From: an uncultured Bacteroidales bacterium
Lineage (GTDB): Bacteria > Bacteroidota > Bacteroidia > Bacteroidales > Paludibacteraceae
Length of the DNA stretch: 37,402 bases
NCBI GenBank assembly: GCA_902800525.1
Contig: CADCEV010000017.1
Span: forward strand, 1-37,402
Direction: 5' to 3'
The position numbers were made by a program, and so were the translations under genes. The notes below the pieces were generated by a model. The model worked only from the letters and a program-made list of their open reading frames with translations, searched no databases and was not told where the DNA came from. Numbering within the stretch: position 1 is the first letter of the stretch; the number at the start of each line of letters is the position of its first letter. Shown here one piece after another: positions 686 to 24,974 of this stretch.

Positions 686-716
686 TTGCATATTTCAAAA
701 AAAAGTATTATCTTTG
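686..716 (+). promoter_or_regulatory. Bacteroidetes-type promoter for the secreted-protein cluster
   Basis: The -7 element TATCTTTG (709-716) fits TAnnTTTG exactly. A TTG at 686-688 lies 20 bp upstream, as expected for the -33 element. The start codon it would serve is at 817, leaving a leader of about 90 nt. Confidence 0.7.
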
Positions 717-816: not shown

Positions 817-3800
817 ATGAAAAAACTATTATTATTTACATCCGCGCTGCTATTAGCGCTATCTCCGAAAATTTGGGCAGAAACGCCTGAGTTGGAAAGT
901 ATGTGGACACTGGTGGAGAGGAGGACTATGGCATGCGCCAAAAGCGACCATGAAAGTATCATACCAGACCAAATGGATAGTACCCAATGGGAAGGTACGA
1001 TATCGGACGTGAGTGGTGAATTCGGTGCCGGTTGCTCCTTTGTAGGCACCAGTCCCGATGAGAGCAAGATGGGTATTTTCTCTATCTATAAGGATGTAGA
1101 GACGGTGCCTTCCTATACGCAGATGGAGTTGAAATGGACCTTCCAGGTAGGAAGCAAGAGCTCTCGTCATCACTCTACAACCTGTCTATATAGTGCCAAC
1201 TCCTATTTCTCGCTCACCCAAAACGGGATGGATTTTTCGAATCACTATGATACGCAAGATGGTTCCTCCTGGCTGATAGGGCGGTTCACCAACAAAGCGG
1301 AGAACGGCGAAATGCTCCATACCGATGATCAGAGTTATACGTTAACGTTTAATAACCTCACCGGCAGCGAGGAGCAAGCCCTGTCGTATTTTATGATGAT
1401 GAGTTACGTATTAGCCAGTGCAGAGGGCAGAAGCGGTTTGGACGAATGGGGCTATTTCAAAACAATCCGTATTGACACTTCGTACTCATACAGCAAACAC
1501 GTTTCCTTCGATGCCAACGGCGGTGAAGGTTCGATGGATGACATGGAAGTGCTTAATATCTGTAACTTGTTCGCCAATACGTTCACCCGTGCGGGTTATA
1601 CGTTTGCCGGTTGGGCATTGTCACCCGAAGGCGAAGTGGCCTATTCCGACAATGGAACGGTTATAGCTTCCGCTACCAACAAAGGTCCCATGACCCTTTA
1701 CGCCGTATGGAGGGAAAAGAGCTATGAATGGAAAGAGGGCCCCTGGACGCAAAAGAAGCAGAAGTCCCACGTCTGCGCTAACGACAACTCCATGACGTCC
1801 ATTAGATTTGACGATATGAATAACACCCAATGGTCGGGAACGATTACCGGTTGGAAAGACGACGAGGGTATCGGCTTCTCTTTCCGGGGTGAAAGTCCGG
1901 ATAAATCGCAAATGGGTATTTTCTCTACGTACGAGAATGCCGTGAAGATGCCGTCTTATTCGCGTATGAAACTGACATGGACCTTCCAATTGGGCAGTTA
2001 TAACTCCAGACACCACTCTGCTACCTGCCTTTACGGCGTCAACGGCTCGTATGAACAAATTATCAATCTGGCAGTGGATTTCTCCAATCACCACGATACC
2101 GAAACGGGCGCCGAATACCTGGTAGTCCCCCCGTTTGTTAATAAAAATCAAGAATCAACCGCGGGAACGTACTACACGGATGTATACACACGTGAATTTG
2201 TGTTTGACAACATAGAAGGCAGTATGGACCAGACCAAGACATGGTATCTTCTGCTGACCCATGTGTTGGCGAGTGCAGGAGCCAAACAAGGCGTAGTTCA
2301 ATGGGGCGCTTTCCGGAGTTTGAGTTGCGAAACGGAATGGACTTACCGTAAGATTATCTCCTTCAACGGCAACGGAGGTATCGGTTCGATGTTGCCGGTT
2401 ACGATAGACAACACCGGCAAGCTGCCGTCGAACACCTTCACTCGCGAGGGCTATACCTTCGCCGGCTGGGCAAAGGCGCATGACGGCAAGGTGGTTTATA
2501 CCGATCAAGCCGCCATTACCGCTACTGCGGCAGACAAAGGTTCCGTCACACTCTATGCCCAATGGAACAAAGAGGACAGCCCCAATGCCATAGCTGCCGG
2601 ACCGTGGGAGTTATTGGATACTTGTTCAGCGGCATTAGCCAATCAGGATACGATCCAGATGAGTTTCGATTCCTTGCAAAAAATGTCCTCCCATTGGGGT
2701 GCCTACCGGCTTTGGAACGGCGATAACGGTATCGGTTTTACCATAGAAACCGCAGCACCGGCGAATGAGACCAGCGGCTTCCTGTCCCTCTACCAACATA
2801 GCGAAGCCGATGTGCCTGCCTATACCAACAGAAGACTGACATGGAGGTACCAATTGGGGTGCGAATCGTCCCGACTGCCTAACTTGACTTCCCTCTATAT
2901 CATCCCGGATTCATTGGTGGGGATCAAGTCCCTGCCGGTGATGTTCTCGCCGATAGATAACACGCAGGAAGCAGGTCATGGTTTGGTATCCCAAACTTAT
3001 AACGCCTCGATGGATGGTACTGCGCATTATACGGACACCCTTATCCAAACCATTGATTTCGATAACCGCGAGAGTGAAGAGGCGCAAACGAAGCATATGT
3101 ATCTGATGATGAAGCATGTGGCAGGTACATCCTCAGCCATGCCTGATGTGAAAGAGTGGGGCGCATTCCTCCCTATAGATGAGGTGTGGGAAGATCTGTA
3201 TTACAAACACATCACTTTCCATTCCAACGACGGAACGGGTTCCAGAACAATACAAGCAATAGAGAACAGCGGCACCCTTAGCCCGAATACCTATACCTAT
3301 GACGGCTATAGTTTCCGTGGATGGTCCACGACACCGGCCGGCGAAGTGGAGTATGCGGACGAAGCCCCGATAGTGGCAACCGCGGACAACAAAGGTGCGC
3401 TGGATCTGTACGCCCACTGGGAAATCATCCATTATAACATCACCTATGATCTTGATGGCGGAACCGCTTCCAACCCGGAGACCTACACCATCCTCGATGA
3501 GACTATTACGCTGCAACAACCCACCAAGAAAGGTTTGCTCTTCTTCGGTTGGACAGGCTCAAACGGCGAGATATTGCAAAAGGAGGTGACCATAGAAAGC
3601 GGTTCGACGGGAGACAAACATTTCGTTGCACGTTGGGGAACCGACGTTGTACCCGCCACCATGGAGAAGATTAACCAAATAGGCACCGTGGAATATACGG
3701 AAGAATGTTATTCGCGAATCTTCGTTGCGCGCTATTATTACGAATCGCTGAGCACGGCAGACCGGGAATTAGTAACCAATTACAGTACGCTCGAAGCAGC

Positions 3801-3876
3801 AGAAGCGCGTTATGAAGAACTCCGTACCAATCCGGATGAAGATGATTGCAGTGAGGCTTTATGGCCGAACCCCTAA
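817..3876 (+). CDS. Secreted modular protein: three novel modules alternating with InlB B-repeats
   Basis: The start at ATG 817 (rather than further upstream in frame) gives a clear Sec signal peptide, MKKLLLFTSALLLALSPKIWA. Layout (1019 aa): three ~190-residue modules of an unrecognised kind at about 22-225, 308-510 and 595-797; each leads into an InlB/Listeria-Bacteroides B-repeat (F.aNGG.G.m ... NTFTR.GYTFAGWA ... KGP.TLYA.W) at about 227-302, 510-585 and 797-870. A fourth, different InlB repeat follows at 873-942 (YDLDGG ... FFGWTGSNG), then one three-helix repeat at about 945-1005 (INQIGTVEYT...LVTNYSTLEAAEA). Modules 1 and 2 carry MGIFS.Y, RHHS.TCLY and DFSNH.D; module 3 has lost these. 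The protein ends DEDDCSEALWPNP, without the tail seen in two paralogues. InlB repeats are common in surface proteins; binding as its role is inference. Confidence 0.85.
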   Translation: MKKLLLFTSALLLALSPKIWAETPELESMWTLVERRTMACAKSDHESIIPDQMDSTQWEGTISDVSGEFGAGCSFVGTSPDESKMGIFSIYKDVETVPSYTQMELKWTFQVGSKSSRHHSTTCLYSANSYFSLTQNGMDFSNHYDTQDGSSWLIGRFTNKAENGEMLHTDDQSYTLTFNNLTGSEEQALSYFMMMSYVLASAEGRSGLDEWGYFKTIRIDTSYSYSKHVSFDANGGEGSMDDMEVLNICNLFANTFTRAGYTFAGWALSPEGEVAYSDNGTVIASATNKGPMTLYAVWREKSYEWKEGPWTQKKQKSHVCANDNSMTSIRFDDMNNTQWSGTITGWKDDEGIGFSFRGESPDKSQMGIFSTYENAVKMPSYSRMKLTWTFQLGSYNSRHHSATCLYGVNGSYEQIINLAVDFSNHHDTETGAEYLVVPPFVNKNQESTAGTYYTDVYTREFVFDNIEGSMDQTKTWYLLLTHVLASAGAKQGVVQWGAFRSLSCETEWTYRKIISFNGNGGIGSMLPVTIDNTGKLPSNTFTREGYTFAGWAKAHDGKVVYTDQAAITATAADKGSVTLYAQWNKEDSPNAIAAGPWELLDTCSAALANQDTIQMSFDSLQKMSSHWGAYRLWNGDNGIGFTIETAAPANETSGFLSLYQHSEADVPAYTNRRLTWRYQLGCESSRLPNLTSLYIIPDSLVGIKSLPVMFSPIDNTQEAGHGLVSQTYNASMDGTAHYTDTLIQTIDFDNRESEEAQTKHMYLMMKHVAGTSSAMPDVKEWGAFLPIDEVWEDLYYKHITFHSNDGTGSRTIQAIENSGTLSPNTYTYDGYSFRGWSTTPAGEVEYADEAPIVATADNKGALDLYAHWEIIHYNITYDLDGGTASNPETYTILDETITLQQPTKKGLLFFGWTGSNGEILQKEVTIESGSTGDKHFVARWGTDVVPATMEKINQIGTVEYTEECYSRIFVARYYYESLSTADRELVTNYSTLEAAEARYEELRTNPDEDDCSEALWPNP

Positions 3877-3903
3877 AAACATACTATTTAAATCTTGTAA
3901 ATT

Positions 3904-5712
3904 ATGAATGTTATGAAAAAACGTATATTATTTGCCTTGCTGCTCAGTATAGCGGCACAAGGAGTATGGGGCGATCTGCCGAAGTATTATCCTGCGGAAG
4001 TGCTGAAGCCGAATGCCGTGGAAGGTCCGTGGACATGGGACGATGTAAGTAACGGCGTGTGGTATGAAGGAAAGGAACAGGATTCATTCAAACAACTGAA
4101 TCGAAATTTCTGGGAGCCGCGTGATGATTGGAACCACCCCACGCACAACGTCATCTACCAATGGCAAGACGGAGACGGCGTAGGTTTTACCCAATGCAGC
4201 AAATCGTCACCAAGTACCCATTTTGCGGTCTATTCCACCTATTGCCATGACAAGAAGATGCCGTCTTATACCCGTTCCCGGATGGTATGGAAATTCCGGT
4301 TAAAAGGAAGAACCACGGAATTCCCGCAGTGCATCACGTTATACGCTCATGAAGATAAGGAAGCATTAAAAGCAATGCCTGTCGATTTCACGTACGACTA
4401 CCGCAACGGCGCCGGAAAGGAGTACGTGATCGCGCAATTCAAGATGCCGAAGGATCAAGAAGAGAAGGAGACGGGTGACTATACCCGGGAATTCGATTTC
4501 GACAACCGATACGGCGCTACCGAGCAAACCATACAATGGACTCTCATGCTCACCAACTCCATGTGGGCCAACAGTAAGCAAAGCAGAGAGTCCGCACACC
4601 AGTGGGGCTCATTCAAGCATAGGGGGGTATCCTGGATAAACTACTACTATAAGTACGTCACCTACGATAAAAACGCGTCCTATGCCGAAGGCACAATGGA
4701 TGTTCAGGAGATAGAGAACGCCGATACCCTGTATGCCAATACGTTCACCAATCCGGGCTTTACCCTTGTGGGGTGGGCTACTTCACCCGACGGACCGGTG
4801 GCCTATACCGACCAAGACATCATCACCGCTACGAAAAAAGACAAAGGTCCGGTGACGCTCTATGCGGTATGGGAAACGAACGTCGAGGCGGTGACGGATC
4901 TTATTAAAAGAATCGGCATTGTGGATAACACACCGGAATGCAAGAAGCGAATAGACATCGCCCGCGAAGCGTATGATAACCTGAGCCCGGCAGACCAAGC
5001 GAAAATAAAAAACTACTGTATTCTGCTCATCGCGGAGCATGTTTATCAAGCCCAAGAGTTGATAGCAGCTGCCGACGCTACGGAATATTCCGATGCGCTC
5101 CAACCGCTCATCGATGCGGCGCGGGATGCATACGATGCACTCAGTGTGCTGGAAAAAGCATTTGTCAACAACTATAATACATTAGTGGAAACGGAAGACA
5201 AGTATGACCCCTCTCATGCTTATGCGCTGATCAACGCGCTGCCGGATTCCATTGTGTATCCCGGTAGCGAGGAAGCCGTTAACGCTGCGCTTACCGCCTT
5301 TACCAAACTATCCGAAAACGCGCAAGCTAAATTGTCGGCAGCCGTATTGGAGAAACTGCAATCAGCGGTGGAGGCGTACGAGGCGATGGGAGGCAAAAGC
5401 ACGATCCGGTTTGTGGACAATGAATCGCAAACAATCCGGACACAGGTGCTCGAACTGAATTATCCTGTTCCGCCCGTGATCGCAGGGTTCACTTTCCTGT
5501 ACTGGCAGGCTGTAGGCGAATATATCATGGAAGAAGAAAAAGCCATTATCATCCGCGCCGTATATAAATATGACACTCCTACGGACATCGAGGAAACTCC
5601 CTTCCCTTCAGGGGAGGGTCGGGGTGAGGCCTCCAAATTCATCAAGGAGGGAAACGTGTATATCCTCAAGGATGAGTTTATCTATACCATTAACGGAGCG
5701 AAGGTAAAATAA
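3904..5712 (+). CDS. Secreted modular protein, divergent module + InlB repeat + helical repeats + C-terminal tail
   Basis: Signal peptide MNVMKKRILFALLLSIAAQGVWG; ATG 3913 in frame is an alternative start. One divergent copy of the cluster's module lies at about 42-240. It keeps EGPWTWDD, VYSTY, PSYTRS, FDFDNR and QWGSF but has HED in place of HHS. Then come an InlB repeat (about 250-324; NTFTNPGFTLVGWATS), three three-helix repeats (about 328-497; LSPADQAKIKNY, LSVLEKAFVNNY) and a small beta module (TIRFVDN ... YWQAV ... IIIRAVY). The last 44 residues form a tail, EETPFPSGEGRGEASKF followed by IKEGNVYILKDEFIYTING. DNA coding most of the tail is almost identical to the end of the gene at 17077. 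The tail may be a sorting or anchoring signal, because it resembles other short C-terminal ends on Bacteroidales secreted proteins; this is inference. It lies 27 bp after the previous gene, so likely the same operon. Confidence 0.8.
   Translation: MNVMKKRILFALLLSIAAQGVWGDLPKYYPAEVLKPNAVEGPWTWDDVSNGVWYEGKEQDSFKQLNRNFWEPRDDWNHPTHNVIYQWQDGDGVGFTQCSKSSPSTHFAVYSTYCHDKKMPSYTRSRMVWKFRLKGRTTEFPQCITLYAHEDKEALKAMPVDFTYDYRNGAGKEYVIAQFKMPKDQEEKETGDYTREFDFDNRYGATEQTIQWTLMLTNSMWANSKQSRESAHQWGSFKHRGVSWINYYYKYVTYDKNASYAEGTMDVQEIENADTLYANTFTNPGFTLVGWATSPDGPVAYTDQDIITATKKDKGPVTLYAVWETNVEAVTDLIKRIGIVDNTPECKKRIDIAREAYDNLSPADQAKIKNYCILLIAEHVYQAQELIAAADATEYSDALQPLIDAARDAYDALSVLEKAFVNNYNTLVETEDKYDPSHAYALINALPDSIVYPGSEEAVNAALTAFTKLSENAQAKLSAAVLEKLQSAVEAYEAMGGKSTIRFVDNESQTIRTQVLELNYPVPPVIAGFTFLYWQAVGEYIMEEEKAIIIRAVYKYDTPTDIEETPFPSGEGRGEASKFIKEGNVYILKDEFIYTINGAKVK
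5590..5697 (+). repeat. 108-bp coding repeat with GC-rich palindrome (copy 1)
   Basis: Identical at 106 of 108 positions to 23194-23301, by reading both copies. It begins with a REP-like hairpin (CCCTTCCC, TTCA, GGGGAGGG, one G-T wobble) followed by GTCGGGGTGAGG. It is read in frame as PFPSGEGRGEAS and continues through the tail of the protein. Confidence 0.85.
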
Positions 5713-5736
5713 ATTAAAAATTAAAAATTAAGAATT
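5713..5736 (+). repeat. ATTAAAAATT-type short tandem repeat before a start codon
   Basis: The entire gap between the stop at 5710-5712 and ATG 5737 is made of an ATTAAAA unit repeated about three times, ending AGAATT. It looks like the reverse-oriented counterpart of the repeat at 23311-23342. Confidence 0.65.
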
Positions 5737-7314
5737 ATGAAACGCAATTTATTATATATCGCCCTTCTGTTGGTAGCAGCGCAGGGACCATGTGCGGAAG
5801 CCCAAACCTATGAAGGACCATGGCGGCAAATGGAGCGGAGAATGATGGTCTGCGACAATACCAATTCACCTTCGATTTGTGTAGATAATACGAACGGTGA
5901 CAAATGGCCGGGAACGGTTTCCGGTTGGTGTAACTCAGACGGTACCGGCTTTACATTCCAGGGTAGGAGTCTCTATTCCAGCAAAATGGGTATTTTTTCC
6001 ACCTACAAGCTGGAGAAATTAATTCCTTCTTACTCGTATATGAAGATGACTTGGACATTCCGATTAGGAAGCCTGACCACCAAGCATCACTCCACCACTT
6101 GTCTGTATGGAATGCATGGCAGTTACTACGATATCATTCATCTGGAAGTGGATTTCTCGAATCACTACGACTCCAAAGTCGGAGCCGAATACCTATTGGC
6201 GCGCTTATCGCGTACCGACCAAACCGGCAAGATAAAGTACACCGGAGATCAAACCTATACGTTTGACTTTGATAACCGGAATGGTAATAGAGACCGGCTT
6301 GAATACTGGTATCTGCTCCTGACCCATGTCATGGCGAGCGATTCAGGAAAGGAAGATCTGGATGAATGGGGCGCTCTCAAGAGTATAGGCGACGAAACGA
6401 TATGGAGTTACCGCAAGATTATCTCCTTCAATGCCAATGGCGGTTCGGGAGTGATGGATAATGAGAATATCGATGACAGTGGTACTCTAACCCCCAATAC
6501 GTTCACGCGAGGGAGTTATAACTTCTTAGGCTGGGCACTCTCGCCTTCCGGGGAAGTGGTCTATACCGATCAGGCGGCGATCACGGCCGGCAAAAATGAC
6601 AAAGGTCCCGTGACGCTCTATGCCAAATGGGCTCCGTCAACAGACGGCGTAATGGCGGATATTGAGGCTATCGGCGCGCCTGTTACCTTGGATAGCCGCG
6701 ATGCAATTCACTATGCCCGGGAGGGATACGACGACTTGAGCGCGGAACAAAAAACACAAGTAACCAACTATGCCAAACTAACCAATGCCGAAGCTGCTTA
6801 CAACGCGGTAAGCCTTATTCAGGCGATTGGCAAGGTGGTATATAGCAATGCCTGCAAGACGAAAATCAATGCCGCCCGCAACGCTTATAACGCGCTCAGC
6901 GAGATACAGAAAGACCTGATCCCGGAAACGGTTCTCCGTCTCCTTATCGCGGCTGAAGATAACTACAGCGTATTGTGTGCGGAGGCTAAGATAACGGCCA
7001 TCGGTACGGTGGCATACACCCAAGAAAGCAAAGCGAAGATTGATACTGCACGCACCTATTACGATGCGTTGACCTATCCGCAGAAAGAGATTATCTCTGC
7101 TTCGTTCCTTCAAACGCTGCAAAAAGCAGAAGCCGATTATGCAAGTTTCGCACCGAGCAACATCCGCTTTATGAACAAGGACCAATCGGAACAGATAGAC
7201 GGCAACCGGCAGAAAGCCATCTATTATCCCGCCCTGCCTGACGGAGCATCCAACTGGCAAACCGTGGAGAAAGACGTGTCAGACAAAACCATCGTTATCC
7301 AAGCGGTGGAGTGA
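5737..7314 (+). CDS. Secreted modular protein, one novel module + InlB repeat + three helical repeats, no tail
   Basis: Signal peptide MKRNLLYIALLLVAAQGPCAEA. A well-preserved module spans about 26-225 (EGPWRQMERR, WPGTVSGW, MGIFSTY, PSYSYMKMTWTFRLGS, KHHSTTCLYG, VDFSNHYD, WYLLLTHVMAS, DEWGALK). It passes directly into an InlB repeat (about 227-300; SYRKIISFNANGG ... KGPVTLYAKW). Three helical repeats follow at about 305-470, each with an AIG...I..AR..Y..L...Q motif. The small beta module (NIRFMNKDQ ... NWQTVEKDVSDKTIVIQ) ends the protein at AVE. Compared with the 3904 and 17077 genes it lacks the tail. The codons for the signal peptide closely match those at 23343. It is the cleanest single-module member, so the best one for structure prediction. 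Function unknown. Confidence 0.85.
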   Translation: MKRNLLYIALLLVAAQGPCAEAQTYEGPWRQMERRMMVCDNTNSPSICVDNTNGDKWPGTVSGWCNSDGTGFTFQGRSLYSSKMGIFSTYKLEKLIPSYSYMKMTWTFRLGSLTTKHHSTTCLYGMHGSYYDIIHLEVDFSNHYDSKVGAEYLLARLSRTDQTGKIKYTGDQTYTFDFDNRNGNRDRLEYWYLLLTHVMASDSGKEDLDEWGALKSIGDETIWSYRKIISFNANGGSGVMDNENIDDSGTLTPNTFTRGSYNFLGWALSPSGEVVYTDQAAITAGKNDKGPVTLYAKWAPSTDGVMADIEAIGAPVTLDSRDAIHYAREGYDDLSAEQKTQVTNYAKLTNAEAAYNAVSLIQAIGKVVYSNACKTKINAARNAYNALSEIQKDLIPETVLRLLIAAEDNYSVLCAEAKITAIGTVAYTQESKAKIDTARTYYDALTYPQKEIISASFLQTLQKAEADYASFAPSNIRFMNKDQSEQIDGNRQKAIYYPALPDGASNWQTVEKDVSDKTIVIQAVE

Positions 7315-7318
7315 AAAA

Positions 7319-7362
7319 TGGTTTGAAACGGTTTGAAGTTGTTTGAAATGGTTTGTAAAACT
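7319..7362 (+). repeat. Degenerate ~10-bp tandem repeat, GGTTTGAAAT type
   Basis: Four to five imperfect copies of a GGTTTGAAAT/GTTGTTTGAA unit fill the gap before the giant gene. A longer version follows the gene at 23343-24974. Confidence 0.6.
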
Positions 7363-7377
7363 TTTAATTAATACGCA

Positions 7378-10300
7378 ATGAAAAAAACGATCCAATACTT
7401 GTTACTTGCGTGGGCAATAGCAAGTATTCCTATGGTAGATCTCTTTGCACGCGCCAAACACGGAGACTGGTATTTCCGTGAAGAGAGGGGCGGCACCCAG
7501 TACTCGGCATATTCAGTCGGTAACGGTAAAGTGCATTACAAGATTCTCGTTTTTGCCTCCGGTTCGAAAAGAAACTTCTGGGCTTATTCGGATGAGAACG
7601 ACGTCACGCAGGGATCTCGCTGTTGGACGCATTTAGAGGGTGCACCCGATACCGACTATCCGAACTTCATGATCTACGAGGCGGACAATAGAGAGCATAA
7701 CAGGCCAATAGGCGATGATGGCAAAAACCCCAACGACAGAGGCTGGGCTCGTGTGAAAATGCTGTCCGGCGTCATTATCGTGACCAATACCTATGACGGC
7801 GAGCCGGAGCGTATTACGGCGGACGGTCAGTGGCATGAGGTTTGGCTCAAACGTGACGGTAACGAGGATTGGCTGACCTATTTGGAGTTCGACTTTATAG
7901 AACCCGTGGAATATGCCAATAAGAAGTATTGGGTGGGAAACTCGGTTCATTACCGTCGTGAAGGCGACAAACCCAGTGACCAAGCCCGCGGTTCTCAAAC
8001 CCGAACGTTAGCGAAGATAACCGGCGGCAATCCCGATCCAGCACCTCAATTGCAGACACCGTTCCTGTACGTCTTAAACGAAAACGGTCCTGCCGGTTAC
8101 GGCAAGATAGCTATACCTTATGTCTCGGTACAGCAACCGTACCGGTATTGGCTCTACGGAACGGGAGATCCTATCCCCTGCGAAGAAAGAGCGGACATGA
8201 TTTTGCTAAAAAGCGACGATGTGGTGCGTAGTTTCTATATCACAATGGAGACCCAGCGTTCGCAAGACCCGGATTCCGTTCAAATACAAAACTCCAACAC
8301 CCTCACTATTCCTGCCTATCACAAGCTCCATGATTTTGCGATAGACGGTGTCAAGACGCAGGATGCAGCGACGGGTAAATGGTTTATCAATTACCGCTAC
8401 AAGAAACTGACGTGGAAGATCTATTATCCGGACGAGAAGGAGTTGATGATAGGTGACATGTTCGAGATCCAGCGTGCGTATAAATCCGACTACTCCGACG
8501 CCGAAACAATCGGACTGATCCCGATGATGTACGATTCGCTGGCGACGGATACGCTCACCGACCGTCAGACCTATACCTATATCGACTCAGCGCGCGGGGC
8601 TTGGTGGAACCCGGTAGAGAACAGTTACCGTATCTACTACCGTGTCCGCCGTGCTTCTTCGGGACAATGGGGCTGGGACGGACACGACTTTGCCGCCCAA
8701 CTGGCGTATTATCCGGCTCAGGAGTATTCCCCCTATATTTTCGACAAAAACCTCACGTATCGTCTGTCAGCCGATTTTGAGACCAGCCATAAGGTGAATA
8801 TCACGCTGGAGCTCCCGAACAAGAACATGCAGGCATCCCGTACGGAAGAGACACCGGGTTTCAGCTACTATTACTACGACCCCAAACAGCGCTTCATCCT
8901 GCGCAAGATCATGACGGAGTTGCAGGACACGGTAGAGGTCACTATCCCGGGCAAGTACATCGAGGAGGCACTCAATAAATCTTACCTCAACACGGACGAT
9001 ATCAAATACTCGCAAGAGCCGATAACCATCCTCTACACCGATGAGGCGAACTCTCCTTGTGTACACTATCAGTACGAGGTCTATATTGATACCGCCGGTG
9101 TGACGGTTTTCCGTCCGAACAAGGACTATCCCGCACGCCGGAAAGTGACCCCCGCCGGTGAAGATGACCAAAACGTCTATTTCACGGAGGCGGCGAATAT
9201 CAATTCGTTCCGCGCGACGAAGTCCGACTACTCCGACGGCGTTCTGCTGACCTGGCAATTGACCGACGGGAATATAGGCTCTTACAAGATCGAGACCCGT
9301 CCGGCAGGTAAGGACACCGCCTGGACGGTATTGGTGGATGAGTACGGTGGCAGTTGGTACAAAGACAAAACAGCCAATCCGTTTATCTCTCGCGAATGGG
9401 AATACCGTCTGACGATGACTTATGAATGTAACGGCAACATCCTGTCCGTCGCGAAGACCGCCGTCGGTTCGCGTGACCCGTACGGGAAGGTAAGCGGTTA
9501 TGTACGATATGAGGACGGCTCCGCCTGCCCCGGTTTCGAAGTGAAAGCCAGCCGCACCAGTACCGGCCAAACGGTACAGAGAGTAACGACCGACGAGAAT
9601 GGGTACTACCTGCTGGACAGCCTGCTCTACGGCGAAGGATACGCCTATGCCATTCAGCCGGAAAGCATGTCGGCGGAGTTCAGGTACAATAACACCTCCG
9701 CGACATCCGCTACCATCACGCTTGGTCTGAACGACTGCATCCGGGAGAATATCAATTTCGCCAATATATCCTCAGTCCGCTGTACGGGTCGTGTGCTGTA
9801 TGAGAACAGTACCGTTCCGGCTCGCGATGTACATTTCCTGCTCAACGGCATTCCCGTAAAGAACGGAACATCGCTGTACAAGACCGATGTGTCGGGTAAT
9901 TTCGAGTTCCGCATCCCGCTGCATACGCCGTTCACTCTTCAGGCGTACAAAGAGGGTCATACGTTCGCGGGAGACGGCTTTGTGCGTATGATCAATGAGC
10001 AGACCGGCGAGCCGGACAGCCTGCTCTCCATGGAAAGCGCGCTGGACGGCGTACGTATCTATGACCAGACCAAAGTGCGCCTCATCGGCCGTCTCGCCGG
10101 TGGACGTCTACAAGCAGAGAAACCGCTTGGATTCGGTCTGAGCAAAAATAACCTCGGTGATGATCTCAAGATCGTATTTGAACTGGAGGGAGACAATATC
10201 TCGCATCTCGTGCATTACAAAGATGACCTGTCACGCGACAGCGTTACCGTTAACCTCCTTCACGAGGTACGGAACGGAGAACAATCCGACTCGGTCGGCA

Positions 10301-16545: not shown

Positions 16546-16575
16546 TTCGTGTAATCCGATTAATTCGCAAACAAT

Positions 16576-17034
16576 ATGAAAAAGAAATTGATGGTTATCG
16601 CCTCTTGCGCCTTGCTGCTTTTCGCGGCAGGGTGCAAAAAGGACGGACAAAATGCTCCTGATTCATTCATCGGCGATGTAGCATCCCCCACATGGACCGT
16701 TCCCGAGGCATATGACTACACCTCCTCCATGACCGCGGTCGTCAAGGTGGATCTCAAAGCGCAGTATCCCGGCAAAGCAGCCGATTGGCAACTCAATGAC
16801 AATGATATCCTTGCCGCCTTTTCCGGGGACAAATGCGTGGGAACAAGCAGCCCGAATGAAGGATTGTTCTTCTTAACAATCGTAGATGCGGAAAAAAACA
16901 TTACCCTGCGCTACTACTCTGCGCAATACAAAAACCTCTTTGAGGCCCGTGATGTATTCCCCTTCCACAATGATGATCACCTCGGTACTATCGCCGAACC
17001 GCTTGTTCCGACCTTTGTGGTGGTTAAGCAATAA
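16576..17034 (+). CDS. Small lipoprotein, free-standing copy of a domain in the upstream giant
   Basis: The start gives a lipoprotein signal, with a lipobox LFAAGC and Cys20, so it should be lipid-anchored after cleavage by signal peptidase II. The mature part (about 130 aa) is one domain: MTAVVKVDL, then DNDILAAFSGDKCVGT, GLFFLTIVDAEKN, ITLRYYSAQ and F..DDHLGTI. The same order (MT or MS, a D.I.A.F..ecvG core, a .F.L.I strand, then a FR or LRF strand and a Gly-containing end) appears twice near the C-terminus of the giant (from about residues 2638 and 2944). It begins 30 bp after the giant, so the two are probably made together. A role as partner or anchor is inference. Confidence 0.75.
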   Translation: MKKKLMVIASCALLLFAAGCKKDGQNAPDSFIGDVASPTWTVPEAYDYTSSMTAVVKVDLKAQYPGKAADWQLNDNDILAAFSGDKCVGTSSPNEGLFFLTIVDAEKNITLRYYSAQYKNLFEARDVFPFHNDDHLGTIAEPLVPTFVVVKQ

Positions 17035-17076
17035 AAAGGTAAAAAACGTAAAATCAAAACTTAAAACTTTTATAAC

Positions 17077-20000
17077 ATGAAAAAAAAGATCTTATTATTA
17101 CTGATGCTGATGCTGAACGTGGGGTTCGCATCGAAGATGTATGCCGTGGATGGTGATCAGAGTCATTCCGGCGATTGGTATTATATCGTGAGTGGAGGCT
17201 TTTCGTGGGTACGAGTAACAGACTGTGACCCGATTGTAAATGCCAATATTCCGGAGACGCTTGAAGGATATCCCGTCCAACAAATTACGGGATATTATCC
17301 TATTTTTAAGAGTGCAGTCAAACCTTTCCAAAATCGTACGACTTTGGTCACCTGTACGATTCCTAAAACCGTCACCCTTATTGAAGACGGAGTGTTCTTT
17401 GGCTGTACTTCGTTGCGGGCTATTCTGGTGGATGAAGCGAATCCCAATTATTGCTCCGTCGATAGCGTGCTGTACACCAAGGACTTGACCAAAATCCTGC
17501 GAATACCGTATGCCAAGGCGGACGACTACACCCTTCCCAATACGATTACTGAGATAACCACGTCTCTGTTCGAAGGCTGCGCGGCATTGCCGGAGATTAA
17601 TATTCCGGCTTCCGTGGAAACCATTGATATTCGGGCATTCGCGGATTGCGCCGGTCTGACAGCCATCAATGTAGATGCCAATAACCCCAATTATTGCTCC
17701 ATAGATGGTGTGTTATATAACAAAGACGTCACCGAACTCATTGTTTGCCCCCGCGGCAAGTCCGGCACCTGCAAGGTTCCGAATACCGTTACCAAAATAG
17801 GCGTGTATGCCTTTGCCAATTGCAGCCTTCTGACATCGGTGGAGATGACCGGTACGGTTGAGGAAATCGGTGGTCTCGCCTTTGGCGGCTGCACGAGCTT
17901 GCAGACTATGACATGTTATGCCATCACGCCGCCTACCCAGTCGTGGTTTATGCCTACGTTTGGATTAGCATATACGTATCCCAAAGTGGATACCACTCAG
18001 TGTACCCTCTATGTGCCGAAAGAGGCGATAGACGCCTACAAGGCGGACGCTCATTGGAACGGTTTCGGACATATTGAGGTCATTCCTCAGCCTTCGGATT
18101 TCTTGGGCGACGGCACCGCCATTTCCCCTTATCGTATTTTCACGGCAGACGACTGGAATCTCCTCGCTACACGTGTTGCGCAAGGAATTCGCTACGAAAA
18201 TACATATTTCAAACAGGAGTTGGATATAGCGGTTACGACGATGGTAGGCGACGAGACGCATCCATTCTGCGGTGACTATAACGGCCACGAACATAAACTG
18301 ACCTTCACCGCCGACGTATCTGAGAACTACGCGGCGCCGTTCCGTCATGTGAAAGGCGCTACTATTCATTCGCTCGTCGTGGACGGCTCTATAGCCACAT
18401 CGGCGGCTTATGCCGGCGGACTGGTCAGCATGGCGGACAGCGCTCTCACAGTAACGGACTGCCGCGTAAGCACCGATCTCAGCTTCAGCGGCACGGACAT
18501 AAAGAGCGGCAGTATCGTCGGTTGCGCCAACGGTACCGTAACGATGGACGGATGTCTCTACGACGGAGACTTAACCGGCAGTAGCACATGGACGAATTTC
18601 GGCGGTTTTGTATGGTCGCAAGCTGCAGACTCCGCGGTCACTATCTCCAACAGCCTCTTTGCACCGGCTGCTTTCACCGGTTATGGGGCAAACATTTATC
18701 CGTTTGTATGCGGCGTCAATGAGGCAAAAACCGCCTTCACGGATAGTTATTATATCGCGCCGTTAACCTCTACTCAAGGAGCGCGCGCATATACCCTCAC
18801 CGCTGCGACAAATAAGATTACCATAAGTCGCCATGACGAACCTGTGTTCAGCCATGCACTCACCGGTCTGACCATATACAATGCCGGTGTCTTGCACGGC
18901 GGTGTGCTCTACTGCAGTGCGAGTGCGGAGGTACCGCTCAAGCTCAGCGGTTCCTATGCGTACAAGCCTTCGGTAGGAGCGCTCGCTTCGAAAGAAGGTT
19001 ACTATACCTTGACCACTGTGGCTGAAAACACCGTCATCTATGGTTCGGCTGCCTTCGACACGAAACCGTCGGCGCGCAATCCGGTGTATACCGGTTCTGC
19101 ACAAGGGCTTATCACAACCGGTACGTGCAAGCAAGGCACTCCGCAATATTCCTTGGATGGAGAGCAGTGGAGCGATGCTGTGCCGCAGGCTACCAATGCA
19201 GGCACCTATCGTGTATACTACAAGATTATCGGTGACGCCACCCATGCGGATAGCCAAGTATCCTATCTGAATGCGCCTATCGCCAAAGCGGAGACGGGCT
19301 ACGCTACGCGTCCTGCCGCGATAGCTAACCTTTATTATACCGGTTCTGCATATGAGCTTATCACCGCCGGCGAAGCGCAACAGGGTACGGTAACTTATTC
19401 GCTGGACAAAGAGAACTGGAGTACACATCTGCCCACAGCTACCCACGTAGGTATCTACCGTGTGTACTATAGAATAGAGGAAAGCGACAACTATAAAGGT
19501 CTGGGTCCGGATAACGTGATTGTTTCTATCCACGATAGTTATATTCCGGAATCCGCCGACTATTTCTTTGAAAATATCACAGTGTTGGCATCTCAGCAAG
19601 GAGCCGATACAGGATTGGACAAAGCAGAAAAAATGTTCGATGGCGATAGAGACACCAAATGGTGCAGTAAGACGGATGGTGTAACACAGTATTCCGACCG
19701 CCCGAAAGACATCGTGGTTTGGATGACGGATGCACCCGTTGAGATGCTGACCTATACGCTTACTACAGGCAACGACACGGAGACATTCCCCAACCGCAAC
19801 TGGGATTCCTGGACCATCTATGGAGGAAATTTCGCCGATTCCACTGCCGCCAAAGCAGCACTCTTGACCGACGACGGATGGACGATTTTGGATCATCGGC
19901 TCGGGGATACCGTGCTGCTGGCAAAAAACAGTACAGACTTCAAGTTCGCTTGCCTCAACACGGGCACGTATCAGTATTACCGCCTCGTCATCCATGATCT

Positions 20001-23000
20001 CAAACACGTACAACCGGACGAAGACCAAAGCACGCAGCAGATGGCGGAACTGACCATGGGCATTCGTCATGAAGATTCGGAGCGCAAAGAATTATTATGG
20101 ACTCCGATTGCAACCAAGACCGGCACCTGCGCTAAAGACGGTTCAACGACGAAAAAGGCTTTTGCCGGCATGGACAATGACAAATGGCCCGGAACGGTGT
20201 CAGCTTGGGATGACTACTTCACAGGATTCAACTATCAAGGCAGCAGCCCGGATAACAGCGTAATGGGTATTTTCTCTACCTATAAGTGTGCGTCCGACGT
20301 GCCGGCCTATACAACGATGACCCTGACGTGGACATACAAATTGTATAGCAAGTGTACCGGGCATCACTCCGCTGTGTGTCTATATGGGCTCCAAGGTACG
20401 GAGAACGACATCAACACTCTGGAGGTGGATTTCACAAACCACTACGATTCGAAAGCCGGTGCACAATACCTGCTGAATAATTTCACCAACGAAAATCAAA
20501 ATGGCAAAATTTACGATTCAGCCAAGAAGACCGCTTCCCTCAACTTTAATAACATCGACGGCGCTACAACGCAAACCAAGACATGGTATCTCCTGTTTAC
20601 TCACGTGATAGCGAGCGGAACCGGCAAGACCGGTTTGAACGAGAGTGGTTCCTTCCAAGGCATCAGCGTAGATACCACCTGGACATACCGCAAAATCGTC
20701 ACCTTCGATGCTAATGGCGGTACGGGCACGATGGCCAACCAGATCATTGATAACAGCGGCAAACTCTCGCCAAACACATTCGTCAAAGACGGCTATACCT
20801 TTACCGGTTGGGCAACGGAGAAAAACGGACCGATGGTCTATAACGACCAAGCCATCATCACAGCCACCGCTGAGGACAAAGGTCCCAAGACGCTTTATGC
20901 CGTTTGGACGGAATGGGGAAAGGGAACGAAAGAAGGCCCGTGGACACAATTGGAATGGAAGAGCGGAACCAGCGTCAAGACTAAAAACTTGTCGATTTCT
21001 TATAACGAACTGGACAACACCCAATGGCCGGGCACGATAACCAGCTGGTGTGACAATGACGGTATCGGCTTCACCTATAAAGGAACAAGCCCCGATGAAA
21101 GCAAGATTGGTATATTCTCTACCTATCAAAAAGAGGTGGTCGCACCTGCCTACTCATGCCTCACGCTGAAATGGACATACCAACTGAGCAGCAAGAGCAC
21201 CGCTCATCACTCTACCACTTGTCTTTACGCGCTTCAGGATTATAACCAACTCAAGGCGCTGGCGGTCGATTTCACCAACCACTATGACAACGAGGCCGGC
21301 AAAGACAACCTGTTGGCTACTCCGTTCCAGAACCGCTATCAGAATGGCAAAATCGTGGCAGATATGCAGAGCCATACGTTCCTCTTTGATAACCGCGATG
21401 GCAGTGCGCCGCAAACCAAAGCATGGTATCTGCTGCTCACGCACGTGGTAGCCAGCGCGGACGGAAGAAGCGGTTTGAAAGAGTGGGGTGCTTTCAAGAA
21501 TAGAGCTGTCGATTCCGTATGGATATACCGCAAAATCGTCACCTTCAATGCCAATGGCGGTACAGGCACGATGGCTGACCAGATTGTTGATAACAGCGGC
21601 AAACTGTCGCACAACACGTTCACCAAAGCGAATTTTTACTTCGCCGGTTGGGCTACGGCTGCTGACGGCAAAGTGGTCTATGACGATGGCGAAGTGATAA
21701 CTGCCACGGCTCAGGACAAAGGTCCCGTCACCCTCTATGCCGTATGGAAAGAGGGTAGCGATGACGATCACGCATTAAAGGGAATATGGACGCATGTGGG
21801 TAGGAGTAACTTTGAGTGCGATAGAATGAAGTATCCGTCCCTCTCGTACAATGAGTTGGATGGCTCCAAATGGGGTGGCTTGGATTCATGGGGCGCAAAA
21901 GGTGATAGCACCGGTTACGACTTCGAGGGTGGAAGCCCGGATATCAGCAAGAATGCCATCTTCTCGATTTATCGGAAAGATATTGTGGTGCCTTCCTATA
22001 CCTGTATAAAGATGGCATGGAGATTCCGCCTGGGTAGCAAGAGCAAAAAGCATCACGCCACCGTATGTATGTACGGACTCCCGGATTCGGAAACTGACAT
22101 CAAGAATCTGAAGGTGGATTTCTCGGATGATTATGTAACGACAGTAGGCTCCGAATATCTCTTGACGGCTCCGTTCTCCCATAGCAATCAAGATGGCAAA
22201 ACACGTTTTGCCGACCAGGCATATACCTTTGTGTTTGATAACCGCGCAGGCAGCGTGGACCAAACCAAAACATGGTTTACGATGTTTACCTATGTATTGG
22301 CGAGCTCAGGCGGAAAAGATAATTTGAATGAGAGAGGGTATTTCCGCAGTCTGCGTGTCAAGTATATATCGATATACTACAAGGCCTTCTCCTTCAATGC
22401 CAATGGCGGTTCAGGTATAATGGAACAAGCGTTGGTGGAGAACGGCGGTAACCTGCCGGCTAACATCTTCACGCGCAATGGCTATACCTTCGCCGGTTGG
22501 GCTACCTCCGCTGACGGCGCAGTAGAATATGCCGATGAAGCTGCGATTACGGCTACCGCAGAGACCAAAGGCGCATATACGCTCTACGCTGTATGGACGC
22601 CGGAGAACTACACTATCTCCTATGATTTGGACGGCGGTGAGGCAACCAATCCGGCTTCTTACACCGAGGCAACCGAGACCTTCACGCTCACTAACCCGAC
22701 CCAAGACGGATACACCTTCCTCGGTTGGACCGGCTCGAACGGCGATGTGCCGCAAGCAAGCGTTGCTATCGTCAAAGGCTCGACAGGCAATAAGTCCTTC
22801 ACCGCCCGTTGGATGAGTAATGCAGTGGCTACTACGCAAGACCTGATTACTGCTATCGGCGTGGTAACCACCGAGAGCGGAGAGGCTATTGCAGATGCCC
22901 GTGCCGCATACAATGCGCTGAGCACGGAAGACCAAGCCTTCGTCTCCAACTATACGACGCTCACCGCAGCGGAAGCCGCATACGAAGCAGCAAGAGACGC

Positions 23001-23319
23001 AGCAGGAAACACCACGATTCAATTTATAGGCCAAGACGAATCCTCTGTTGCAGTAGCAAAGATCCAATTGGATTATCCCGAGGCACCGAAGATTTCCGGC
23101 TATACTTTCCAATACTGGAGGGTAGCAGAGAAAAATCTCTCCGATGGCACAATCCGCCTCCAAGCGGTTTATACCTCTACTCCTACTGACCTTGAGGAAA
23201 CTCCCTTCCCTTCAGGGGAGGGTCGGGGTGAGGCCTCCAAATTCATCAAGGAGGGTAACGTCTATATCCTCAAGGATGAGTTTATCTATACCATTAACGG
23301 ACAACGTGTTAATTTTTAA
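17077..23319 (+). CDS. Large secreted protein: BspA-like LRR + GLUG-like + discoidin-like + three novel module/InlB pairs + tail
   Basis: Signal peptide MKKKILLLLMLMLNVGFASK. Layout (2080 aa): BspA-like leucine-rich repeats (about 40-340; IPKTVTLIEDGVFFGCTSL, NTVTKIGVYAFANCSLL); a GLUG-like beta-helix region (about 345-590); two 82-residue Ig-like repeats (about 663 and 745; RNPVYTGSAQ.LI, IANLYYTGSAYELI); a discoidin/F5-8C-like region (about 828-998; EKMFDGDRDTKWCSK); three copies of the cluster module (about 1006-1198, 1287-1480, 1569-1765), each followed by an InlB repeat; a fourth InlB of the YDLDGG type (1845-1913); a helical repeat (1917-1975); the small beta module; and the tail also seen at the end of the 3904 gene. 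All three modules keep HHS or HHA. Module/InlB pairs 1 and 2 are close at DNA level, suggesting internal duplication. LRR, discoidin and LamG types are adhesin-like parts; the target is unknown. Confidence 0.85.
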   Translation: MKKKILLLLMLMLNVGFASKMYAVDGDQSHSGDWYYIVSGGFSWVRVTDCDPIVNANIPETLEGYPVQQITGYYPIFKSAVKPFQNRTTLVTCTIPKTVTLIEDGVFFGCTSLRAILVDEANPNYCSVDSVLYTKDLTKILRIPYAKADDYTLPNTITEITTSLFEGCAALPEINIPASVETIDIRAFADCAGLTAINVDANNPNYCSIDGVLYNKDVTELIVCPRGKSGTCKVPNTVTKIGVYAFANCSLLTSVEMTGTVEEIGGLAFGGCTSLQTMTCYAITPPTQSWFMPTFGLAYTYPKVDTTQCTLYVPKEAIDAYKADAHWNGFGHIEVIPQPSDFLGDGTAISPYRIFTADDWNLLATRVAQGIRYENTYFKQELDIAVTTMVGDETHPFCGDYNGHEHKLTFTADVSENYAAPFRHVKGATIHSLVVDGSIATSAAYAGGLVSMADSALTVTDCRVSTDLSFSGTDIKSGSIVGCANGTVTMDGCLYDGDLTGSSTWTNFGGFVWSQAADSAVTISNSLFAPAAFTGYGANIYPFVCGVNEAKTAFTDSYYIAPLTSTQGARAYTLTAATNKITISRHDEPVFSHALTGLTIYNAGVLHGGVLYCSASAEVPLKLSGSYAYKPSVGALASKEGYYTLTTVAENTVIYGSAAFDTKPSARNPVYTGSAQGLITTGTCKQGTPQYSLDGEQWSDAVPQATNAGTYRVYYKIIGDATHADSQVSYLNAPIAKAETGYATRPAAIANLYYTGSAYELITAGEAQQGTVTYSLDKENWSTHLPTATHVGIYRVYYRIEESDNYKGLGPDNVIVSIHDSYIPESADYFFENITVLASQQGADTGLDKAEKMFDGDRDTKWCSKTDGVTQYSDRPKDIVVWMTDAPVEMLTYTLTTGNDTETFPNRNWDSWTIYGGNFADSTAAKAALLTDDGWTILDHRLGDTVLLAKNSTDFKFACLNTGTYQYYRLVIHDLKHVQPDEDQSTQQMAELTMGIRHEDSERKELLWTPIATKTGTCAKDGSTTKKAFAGMDNDKWPGTVSAWDDYFTGFNYQGSSPDNSVMGIFSTYKCASDVPAYTTMTLTWTYKLYSKCTGHHSAVCLYGLQGTENDINTLEVDFTNHYDSKAGAQYLLNNFTNENQNGKIYDSAKKTASLNFNNIDGATTQTKTWYLLFTHVIASGTGKTGLNESGSFQGISVDTTWTYRKIVTFDANGGTGTMANQIIDNSGKLSPNTFVKDGYTFTGWATEKNGPMVYNDQAIITATAEDKGPKTLYAVWTEWGKGTKEGPWTQLEWKSGTSVKTKNLSISYNELDNTQWPGTITSWCDNDGIGFTYKGTSPDESKIGIFSTYQKEVVAPAYSCLTLKWTYQLSSKSTAHHSTTCLYALQDYNQLKALAVDFTNHYDNEAGKDNLLATPFQNRYQNGKIVADMQSHTFLFDNRDGSAPQTKAWYLLLTHVVASADGRSGLKEWGAFKNRAVDSVWIYRKIVTFNANGGTGTMADQIVDNSGKLSHNTFTKANFYFAGWATAADGKVVYDDGEVITATAQDKGPVTLYAVWKEGSDDDHALKGIWTHVGRSNFECDRMKYPSLSYNELDGSKWGGLDSWGAKGDSTGYDFEGGSPDISKNAIFSIYRKDIVVPSYTCIKMAWRFRLGSKSKKHHATVCMYGLPDSETDIKNLKVDFSDDYVTTVGSEYLLTAPFSHSNQDGKTRFADQAYTFVFDNRAGSVDQTKTWFTMFTYVLASSGGKDNLNERGYFRSLRVKYISIYYKAFSFNANGGSGIMEQALVENGGNLPANIFTRNGYTFAGWATSADGAVEYADEAAITATAETKGAYTLYAVWTPENYTISYDLDGGEATNPASYTEATETFTLTNPTQDGYTFLGWTGSNGDVPQASVAIVKGSTGNKSFTARWMSNAVATTQDLITAIGVVTTESGEAIADARAAYNALSTEDQAFVSNYTTLTAAEAAYEAARDAAGNTTIQFIGQDESSVAVAKIQLDYPEAPKISGYTFQYWRVAEKNLSDGTIRLQAVYTSTPTDLEETPFPSGEGRGEASKFIKEGNVYILKDEFIYTINGQRVNF
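23194..23301 (+). repeat. 108-bp coding repeat with GC-rich palindrome (copy 2)
   Basis: Partner of 5590-5697, 17.6 kb away, differing at two positions. The same hairpin is in the same reading frame, just ahead of the C-terminal tail. Confidence 0.85.
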
Positions 23320-23342
23320 TTTTTAATTTTGAATTTTGAATT
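23311..23342 (+). repeat. AATTTTTAATTT-type tandem repeat spanning stop and next start
   Basis: Repeats of AATTTTT/AATTTTG run from inside the last two codons of the upstream gene, through its TAA, up to the ATG at 23343. The final residues N-F of the upstream protein come from the repeat. Confidence 0.65.
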
Positions 23343-24974
23343 ATGAAAAAGATTTTATATATCGCCCTTCTGTTGGTAGCAGCGCAGGGAGCATGGGCAA
23401 TACAGTCCAATTTCTACCCGAAATTACTCAGCCCGACGCCCTCCGAAGGACCGTGGACCTATGACGCATTCAATAGCGATGTCACAGATGATGGTGACAA
23501 TTACCGGTCTTTTAATGACTTGACCCATAAGGCCTGGGAAGCATGGGACCATGACAATGATAAAAATGGTACCCACCAAAGACAAAATGACTACGGACTT
23601 GGTTTTTATTTTCATTGCGACGAAGCCCGGTATACATATTATATAATGTATCATACCTATTATCATAACGAAACCCTGCCTCCATACACCCGTAGGCAGT
23701 TAACCTGGGATTATGAGATATACGGAAGTTATGGCTTAAAATGGTGTGATGCTTTGTTCGCTCACGAGGATATGGATGCGCTGAAGAATATGTGGACGTA
23801 CGTTACGGTTGATAAGGATGGCTTTTCGGGTGATTATAGGGCAGTATATAATATCCATACCAATCCATACTGTATTGTTTACTATAAAGGACAAGGACAG
23901 TCATCAACGGTTGATAGGACCGGTACCAAAGTCTTTGATTTCGACAACCGACACGGCAGCGAGACCACCGTCAAATCATGGAATCTCATGATGACTTTTG
24001 TTGTATATGATTCAGATGTTGAGGATGAAGCGACGGGAAGATCGTCTTTCAAAAGTCGCAACGAGAAATGGGATACCTTCTATTACAAGTACATCACCTT
24101 TGACGCCAACGGCGGTATAGGCACGATGGCTACGCAAGAGATTGAGAACAGCGGCAACCTGAAGGCAAATGCCTTCACCCGCGCGGGTTATGCCTTCGCC
24201 GGCTGGGCAACCACACCTAACGGCGCAGTGGTGTACACCGACGGACAAGCGATCACTGCTACCGCCGAGGACAAAGGTCCCGTCACCCTCTATGCCGTAT
24301 GGAAGCCGACCGTCGCAAACGTGATAGCTGCCATTGACGCTATCGGAGAGGTGGTATATACCGCGGAGTGCAAAGCACGCATCGATGGCGTGCGCGCGTT
24401 ATATAATGAGTTGAGTGCCGAAGACAAAAGCGCTGTGACGAACTATAGCACCCTGGTCGCTGCCGAAGCAACCTATTTAGCTATCCAAAATGTAGTTACC
24501 AAGATTACTGCTATCGGCGAGGTGACCGCAGCGAGCGGAGACGCTATTGCTGCAGCACGTGCCGCATACAATGAGCTGACCGAAGCACAGAAGCCGTTGG
24601 TCATCAACTACAGCGCTCTGGTCGATGCCGAAGCACAATACGCCATCTTGCCGGTCGTGGCTGCCATTGGCGCTATCGGCGAGGTGACCGCAGAGAGCGG
24701 AACGGCTATCGCAGACGCTCGTGCTGCATACGATGCACTGAGCAATACGCAGAAATCGCTGGTAACCAACTATCCTACGCTCCTTGCCGCCGAAGCTGCG
24801 TATGCCGACTTAGGCAAGACCACGGTTCTCTATGTGGACAAAGCGGGCACAGATACCATCAGCACCCGGCGCAAGTCTGTCGCCTATCCTGCCTTACCGG
24901 AAGATGCTATCTACTGGCAGACCGTAGAGAAATCCGTTTCCGACAACATCATCGTCATCAAGGCGGTGGAGTGA
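23343..24974 (+). CDS. Secreted modular protein, divergent module + InlB repeat + three helical repeats, no tail
   Basis: Signal peptide MKKILYIALLLVAAQGAWA. The module (about 33-245) is the divergent type, like the 3904 gene: it has SEGPWTYDA, MYHTYYHNETLPPYTR, LFAHEDMDALK and FDFDNRHGSETT, and lacks HHS. An InlB repeat follows (about 248-320; YITFDANGGIGTM ... KGPVTLYAVW), then three three-helix repeats (about 323-490; LTEAQKPLVINY, LSNTQKSLVTNY) with clear similarity to one another. The small beta module ends the protein at AVE, as in the 5737 gene. So it shares its module with one paralogue and its signal peptide and end with another, which suggests mosaic origin. It is the last gene of the block, followed by tandem repeats and a terminator. 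Confidence 0.85.
   Translation: MKKILYIALLLVAAQGAWAIQSNFYPKLLSPTPSEGPWTYDAFNSDVTDDGDNYRSFNDLTHKAWEAWDHDNDKNGTHQRQNDYGLGFYFHCDEARYTYYIMYHTYYHNETLPPYTRRQLTWDYEIYGSYGLKWCDALFAHEDMDALKNMWTYVTVDKDGFSGDYRAVYNIHTNPYCIVYYKGQGQSSTVDRTGTKVFDFDNRHGSETTVKSWNLMMTFVVYDSDVEDEATGRSSFKSRNEKWDTFYYKYITFDANGGIGTMATQEIENSGNLKANAFTRAGYAFAGWATTPNGAVVYTDGQAITATAEDKGPVTLYAVWKPTVANVIAAIDAIGEVVYTAECKARIDGVRALYNELSAEDKSAVTNYSTLVAAEATYLAIQNVVTKITAIGEVTAASGDAIAAARAAYNELTEAQKPLVINYSALVDAEAQYAILPVVAAIGAIGEVTAESGTAIADARAAYDALSNTQKSLVTNYPTLLAAEAAYADLGKTTVLYVDKAGTDTISTRRKSVAYPALPEDAIYWQTVEKSVSDNIIVIKAVE

Follow-up and report, generated by a model that had tools for sequence, protein, structure and literature searches.

Introduction

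To our knowledge, the role of the InlB B-repeat, or Listeria-Bacteroides repeat (PF09479, TIGR02543), in gut Bacteroidota is largely open. One report describes carbohydrate-binding clones that resemble Prevotella proteins with divergent InlB repeats (PMC10076258). Among sandwich proteins, the closest described systems are the carbohydrate-binding modules (CBMs) with a β-sandwich fold and the surface glycan-binding protein B of Bacteroides thetaiotaomicron (7kwc/7kwb), together with Bd1399 of Bdellovibrio (8okh), which its authors place in DUF4360 and describe as having two highly conserved disulfides (PMC10792529). Here we describe a module of 201-215 residues that is repeated nine times in five genes of an uncultured Bacteroidales bacterium, within a 37,402-nucleotide stretch that constitutes the entire contig CADCEV010000017.1 and is hereafter termed the window. 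The module represents a real, unnamed domain family that is unusually coupled to one subtype of the InlB repeat. The family itself lies outside PF09479, and its predicted fold class is a known one.

Identification and extent of the module family

The borders of each copy were placed between the region of the conserved first Trp and the start of the InlB repeat. Inspection of the translations and a leave-one-out profile test confirmed the proposal, made in an earlier note from the letters of the DNA, that an unrecognised module occurs nine times in five neighbouring genes (genes A, B, C, E and F; Table 1). The window copies align over 234 columns and display 22-51% identity to the copy at 5815. 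Searching the 2.39 Mb genome, judged 93% complete, with the protein encoded at 5737 revealed a further four on contig C13, of which gene X holds three and the following gene Y the fourth, bringing the total to 13 copies. Each of these scored 105.6-259.6 bits against a profile from which it had been withheld, compared with 5.6-10.6 bits for the best of 500 shuffled sequences per copy. The module family is real, far beyond chance.

The window and 18 further stretches together hold 34 module copies, of which 29 were aligned; five cut by contig ends were omitted. None of the 29 copies produced a significant match in Pfam, NCBIfam or PHROGs (best E of 0.02, 0.0089 and 0.013, respectively, each for one or two copies and to unrelated families), and a search of PDB sequences returned unrelated proteins (best E of 1 and 0.63). 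The view that the module is unknown as a named domain was thus borne out in these four collections, and no description of it appeared among the literature matches listed.

Coupling of the module to an InlB repeat subtype

In the window, all nine copies are directly followed by an InlB-type repeat, whose predicted structure agrees with that of the Listeria B-repeat. Relative to the PF09479 cut-off of 27 bits, the proteins of genes A, C, E and F score above and the gene B protein just below (24.6 bits). Three of the 34 copies are truncated by the limits of their stretch; among the remaining 31, an InlB repeat follows immediately in 29. Both exceptions reside in giant frames of genome G022, which has only two PF09479 matches genome-wide. 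Thus, the pairing of module and repeat holds throughout the window and nearly so overall, but is not absolute. The two G022 frames (L045 and L046, about 3,870-3,880 residues) open with the module. InlB repeats were found in 177 of 178 genomes of the genus, so the dependence of the module on InlB is one-way.

The 178 genus genomes were searched with a profile built from 18 InlB repeats that follow a module, with at most 33 candidates scored per genome. The 28 best matches (83.5-127.2 bits, 11 of them outside the profile) all lie directly behind a module, and the next (79.5 bits) has no detected module before it. The lowest complete module-following repeat scored 90.0 bits, the repeat at 83.5 bits being cut by a contig end. 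These scores suggest that the module-coupled InlB repeat is a distinct subtype, separated by a gap that is clear but not wide, in a profile itself derived from module-following repeats. At 23 loci with InlB matches that are not preceded by a module, sensitive searching with a 13-row profile revealed no module (best E 0.24). Divergence of the modules did not significantly track that of their repeats (Mantel r of 0.14, 549 of 5000 permutations equal to or above the observed value, n = 26, after removal of the two G022 copies lacking InlB and an L050 copy with a cut InlB; r of 0.18, 947 of 5000 permutations, n = 13 within the window's genome), which counts against tight co-inheritance.

A structure model of the module and InlB repeat of the 5737 product displays a continuous strand, residues 182-206, across the junction. 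Together with the distinct InlB subtype, this predicted strand supports the earlier suggestion that the two parts make up one structural unit. The absence of a linker and the continuity of the modelled strand, as well as the grouping of three units in each of the genes A, E and X, would also suit a passive stalk, in which module-InlB beads merely hold the leucine-rich and helical repeats off the cell. This explanation appears rather unlikely, as the position and relatedness of the units described below argue against it.

Predicted fold

The earlier note left room for a new fold; fold searches did not bear this out, since the module is not evidently new in class. It is predicted to be an unnamed β-sandwich of the broad jelly-roll type. 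CBM27, CBM61, CBM4, CBM11, CBM6 and CBM16 recur among the fold matches, but the module displays no convincing sequence family match to these sandwiches, and carbohydrate binding by it is hypothetical. Surface glycan-binding protein B was matched in fold at 9-10% identity with a borderline Z, and did not surface in the profile search of PDB sequences. Proteins of this kind typically belong to SusC/SusD polysaccharide utilisation loci. No SusC/SusD-type match was found in Pfam scans of 15 window proteins, a set that leaves out the partial gene at the contig start. In contrast with Bd1399 and its two disulfides, the module presents only two common cysteine columns, occupied in 17 and 16 of the 29 copies (both in 12, one in 9 and neither in 8; Fisher p 0.067, relatedness ignored), between which a disulfide is possible, and no copy matched DUF4360 at E<=1. 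Protein-binding sandwiches, the MAM and Eph domains, were also among the fold neighbours. Viral predicted structures gave scattered matches, many to tail proteins or to proteins with InlB-like parts, with TM-scores <=0.31 among the 50 matches listed.

Conserved residues and selection

The most fixed positions of the 29 copies are W3 and G45 (29 copies each), followed by Y73, W80, L97 and N154 (28 each) and by P71, Y98, D153 and Y199 (27 each). Along strand 74-87, hydrophobic residues (M78, W80, F82, L84) alternate with polar ones (K77, T79, T81, R83), suggesting that W80 is a core residue. This alternation, and the structural appearance of W3, G45, Y73, W80, L97, Y98, D153, N154 and Y199, would be compatible with the passive stalk.

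The motifs quoted in the earlier note are present, yet several are not general even within the window: HHS occurs in five of the nine copies, with HHA in one and no counterpart in the copies at 2599, 4024 and 23448, while NHYD occurs in four, with NHHD in one. Both are striking in part of the type I copies of the window's own genome, and the conserved His and Asp residues had been considered as possible metal or catalytic sites, which would make the module an enzyme or a metal-dependent lectin. Over the 29 copies, however, the HHS region (H91 in 19, H92 in 11, S93 in 18) and the NHYD region (N116 in 13, H117 in 9, D119 in 11) vary and are missing where core residues such as W3 and G45 are kept. 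HHS is absent from the four type II copies and from the G022 and G080 copies, and nowhere was an enzyme family match convincing. A family-wide catalytic or metal site was rejected on these grounds, and an enzymatic or metal-dependent role for the module is very unlikely. The counts of H91, H92, H117 and D119 instead mark HHS/NHYD as a subgroup feature, and a metal or catalytic site limited to the HHS subgroup is possible.

Four close pairs of copies presented ratios of nonsynonymous to synonymous substitution rates (dN/dS) of 0.29, 0.19, 0.25 and 0.33 by the NG86 method, and the first three 0.39, 0.28 and 0.27 by YN00. These low values suggest that purifying selection acts on the copies. Mean entropy is 2.26 bits in loop columns and 2.11 bits in strand columns; loops are therefore just slightly more variable than strands, without a sharp sign of hypervariable binding loops.

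Distribution and phylogeny of the copies

Profiles of 13 and of 29 copies identified the same ten of 358 family genomes, nine belonging to the genus of the window and one to another genus. When the order (393 genomes, 13-row profile) and the class (395 genomes, 29-row profile) were sampled evenly, the window's own genome was the sole match. The collection behind these samples covers roughly half of the known species, and the profiles could miss distant members; within this scope the family appears, so far, confined to a small part of one Bacteroidales family. Relatives of the module were not found in virus, phage and plasmid collections. Two narrow peptide patterns run across named genomes matched 22 stretches. 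Relatives account for two of these, and each comes from RUG281, an uncultured Bacteroidales bacterium. The RUG prefix denotes a rumen uncultured genome, and the bacterium of the window probably belongs to a rumen-dwelling group.

Copy numbers per genome from these profiles are lower bounds, as the best eight candidates per genome were considered. Module genes often run off contig ends (G115 C6, C47, C51 and C61; G140 C19; G148 C5), which may mean that such arrays disrupt assembly and that copies are undercounted.

In a tree of the 29 copies, a starred clade comprises 15 type I copies (support 97/98), and a weaker clade (92/94) unites the type II copies of genes B, F and Y with one G115 copy. 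The third modules of genes E and X pair together (100/99), as do the first module of gene X and that of G115 contig 47 (100/97). Pairings of the first gene E module with a G123 copy (94/86) and of the second with a G115 copy (91/86) are not starred. Twelve of the 26 inner branches are open, leaving the remaining relations without support. No resolved fork unites modules of the same gene; a recent tandem expansion was rejected on this basis, and module diversity seems to be old. Spacer arrays often stay alike, whereas the nearest relative of a module usually lies in another gene and not beside it, which speaks against the passive stalk.

In G094 and G107, a domain preceding an InlB repeat was considered as a possible remote cousin, but its scores of 2.5 and 3.5 bits (up to 8.5 for shuffled sequences) and an hhalign probability of 8.6% did not confirm the relationship. 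The stretches concerned, L082:631-1362 and L085:1717-2448, both on the minus strand, encode an unnamed domain of ~244 residues with a module-like PSYTR stretch and a YCYKY end abutting the repeat. Its own profile matched three of 131 genus genomes, namely the two source genomes and G105 (E 0.0017), the latter without similarity to the module.

Gene organization

Positions 817-24974 comprise seven same-strand genes separated by gaps of 23-63 bases (Table 1), an arrangement on one strand with short gaps that suggests a single operon. The putative promoter upstream resembles the Bacteroidota consensus. Gene E alone carries BspA-like LRR_5 repeats (E 9e-24), and the small predicted lipoprotein weakly resembles part of the C-terminal end of the gene D protein (BLASTP E 2e-5, single comparison). 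Frames on the opposite strand exist within the module genes. A PT-VENN match in gene F (E 1e-4, above the Pfam cut-off, 18 residues within the helical repeats) was judged a chance or composition effect.

Table 1. Coordinates of the features of the window
Feature	Position	Strand	Description
Possible Bacteroidota-type promoter	686-716	+	TTG 686-688, 20 bases, TATCTTTG 709-716; by eye
Gene A	817-3876	+	Signal peptide-like start (by eye), three module-InlB units, one extra InlB, C-terminal helical-type stretch (by eye); four PF09479 stretches
Gene B	3904-5712	+	Single module, type II; helical-type repeats (by eye); shared C-terminal tail
Gene C	5737-7314	+	Single module; helical-type repeats (by eye)
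Gene D	7378-16545	+	3055 residues; laminin-G/concanavalin-like domains, no module; inside gene run
Small predicted lipoprotein	16576-17034	+	Lipobox by eye
Gene E	17077-23319	+	BspA-type leucine-rich repeats, three module-InlB units, one extra InlB, helical-type stretch (by eye), shared tail
Gene F	23343-24974	+	Single module, type II; helical-type repeats (by eye)
Module copy 1 (gene A, 1 of 3)	892-1500	+	Translation, alignment
Module copy 2 (gene A, 2 of 3)	1738-2355	+	Query of module-only structure model
Module copy 3 (gene A, 3 of 3)	2599-3210	+	Divergent, without HHS
Module copy 4 (gene B)	4024-4656	+	Without HHS
Module copy 5 (gene C)	5815-6420	+	Query of module+InlB structure model
Module copy 6 (gene E, 1 of 3)	20092-20697	+	Translation, alignment
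Module copy 7 (gene E, 2 of 3)	20935-21537	+	Translation, alignment
Module copy 8 (gene E, 3 of 3)	21781-22386	+	Translation, alignment
Module copy 9 (gene F)	23448-24092	+	Most divergent of window, without HHS
InlB repeat, putative coupled subtype (gene A)	1501-1710	+	Subtype profile
InlB repeat, putative coupled subtype (gene A)	2356-2565	+	Subtype profile
InlB repeat, putative coupled subtype (gene A)	3211-3420	+	Subtype profile
InlB repeat, putative coupled subtype (gene B)	4657-4872	+	Protein below Pfam's cut-off
InlB repeat, putative coupled subtype (gene C)	6421-6630	+	Structure model, subtype profile
InlB repeat, putative coupled subtype (gene E)	20698-20907	+	Subtype profile
InlB repeat, putative coupled subtype (gene E)	21538-21747	+	Subtype profile
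InlB repeat, putative coupled subtype (gene E)	22387-22596	+	Subtype profile
InlB repeat, putative coupled subtype (gene F)	24093-24302	+	Subtype profile
Last ~45 residues of genes B and E	5575-5706, 23176-23316	+	Tail resembling sorting tail, unrecognised by PF18962

Three pairs of neighbouring genes (A-B and E-F in the window, X-Y on contig C13) share one layout, in which a type II gene with a single module begins 23-27 bases after a three-module gene. On G115 contig C19 a single-module gene adjoins a type II gene. Such a recurring order, together with the MAM and Eph sandwiches among the fold neighbours, would suit a module that binds a protein of the same or a partner cell instead of a glycan, for instance in a two-part fibre made of a multi-module type I protein and the adjoining type II protein. 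Gene order by itself is no proof of a complex, however, and gene C is followed by gene D and not by a type II gene; we regard this possibility as unlikely. In the single-unit genes B, C and F the module starts at residue 41, 27 and 36, respectively, close to the signal-peptide-like start, which would be an odd position for a spacer of the passive stalk.

Downstream of the run, Pfam matches comprise a short-chain dehydrogenase, a cytidine deaminase, LptF/LptG, DHBP synthase plus GTP cyclohydrolase II, a fumarase-type lyase and a signal recognition particle-type GTPase, while two downstream proteins have no Pfam match at E<=1e-5. On the minus strand, a frame of 1374 residues with GCDSIV-type repeat units (by eye) extends over 33238-37362 to near the contig end, with no Pfam match at the same threshold.

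Export signals and the shared C-terminal tail

The module proteins start with signal-peptide-like stretches, as judged by eye. The PF18962 sorting domain is absent from the proteins of genes A, B, C, E and F at E<=1 and present in a G135 relative; the window's genome contains PorV and four PF18962 matches, two over the cut-off. Genes B, E and X have a C-terminal tail in common, for which 13 genomic matches were obtained at E<=0.01 including the query, four of them at E <1e-11. Taken together, the starts, PorV, the PF18962 relative and the shared tail make export of the module proteins to the cell surface likely.

A short palindromic GC-rich repeat of the CCCTTCCCTTCAGGGGAGGG type occurs 21 times in the genome at <=2 mismatches, with no occurrence in a backward control. 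It lies within the tail match at window positions 5599-5618 and 23203-23222, and, elsewhere in the same genome (G000), on contigs C13 (8562-8581) and C2 (172597-172616). In genes B and E it is in-frame and encodes PFPSGEGRGEA.

Proposed function

A binding head with a rigid neck is suggested by the proteins that resemble the module in fold, by the repetition and divergence of its copies, and by the leucine-rich, laminin-G and InlB repeats that accompany it. A role of the module-InlB pair as a ligand-binding adhesin unit seems moderately probable. In a small group of Bacteroidales, the module would form the head of multi-domain adhesins that are secreted and probably displayed on the cell surface, and would be joined linker-free to its distinct InlB subtype in such a way that the last long strand of the sandwich would serve as the first strand of InlB. 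This would generate a presumably rigid unit of ~272 residues, present one to three times per protein. The 13 diverged copies, partly in neighbouring gene pairs, would probably recognise several related ligands. A glycan would be the likeliest ligand type, with plant, mucin or microbial glycans as candidates, and a protein partner would come second. A more elaborate version, in which the module and its own InlB subtype form a two-domain recognition unit with InlB as part of the binding device, the paired genes specify a two-part surface adhesin and old modules are kept across species as a specificity repertoire, is tentative and rather improbable.

One InlB subtype is here tied to a specific unnamed sandwich domain through a predicted shared strand, which provides a concrete construct for testing. 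If glycan binding by the module proves true, it would add an extra binding family and offer a hint as to how the bacterium holds on to its substrate, host or neighbours.

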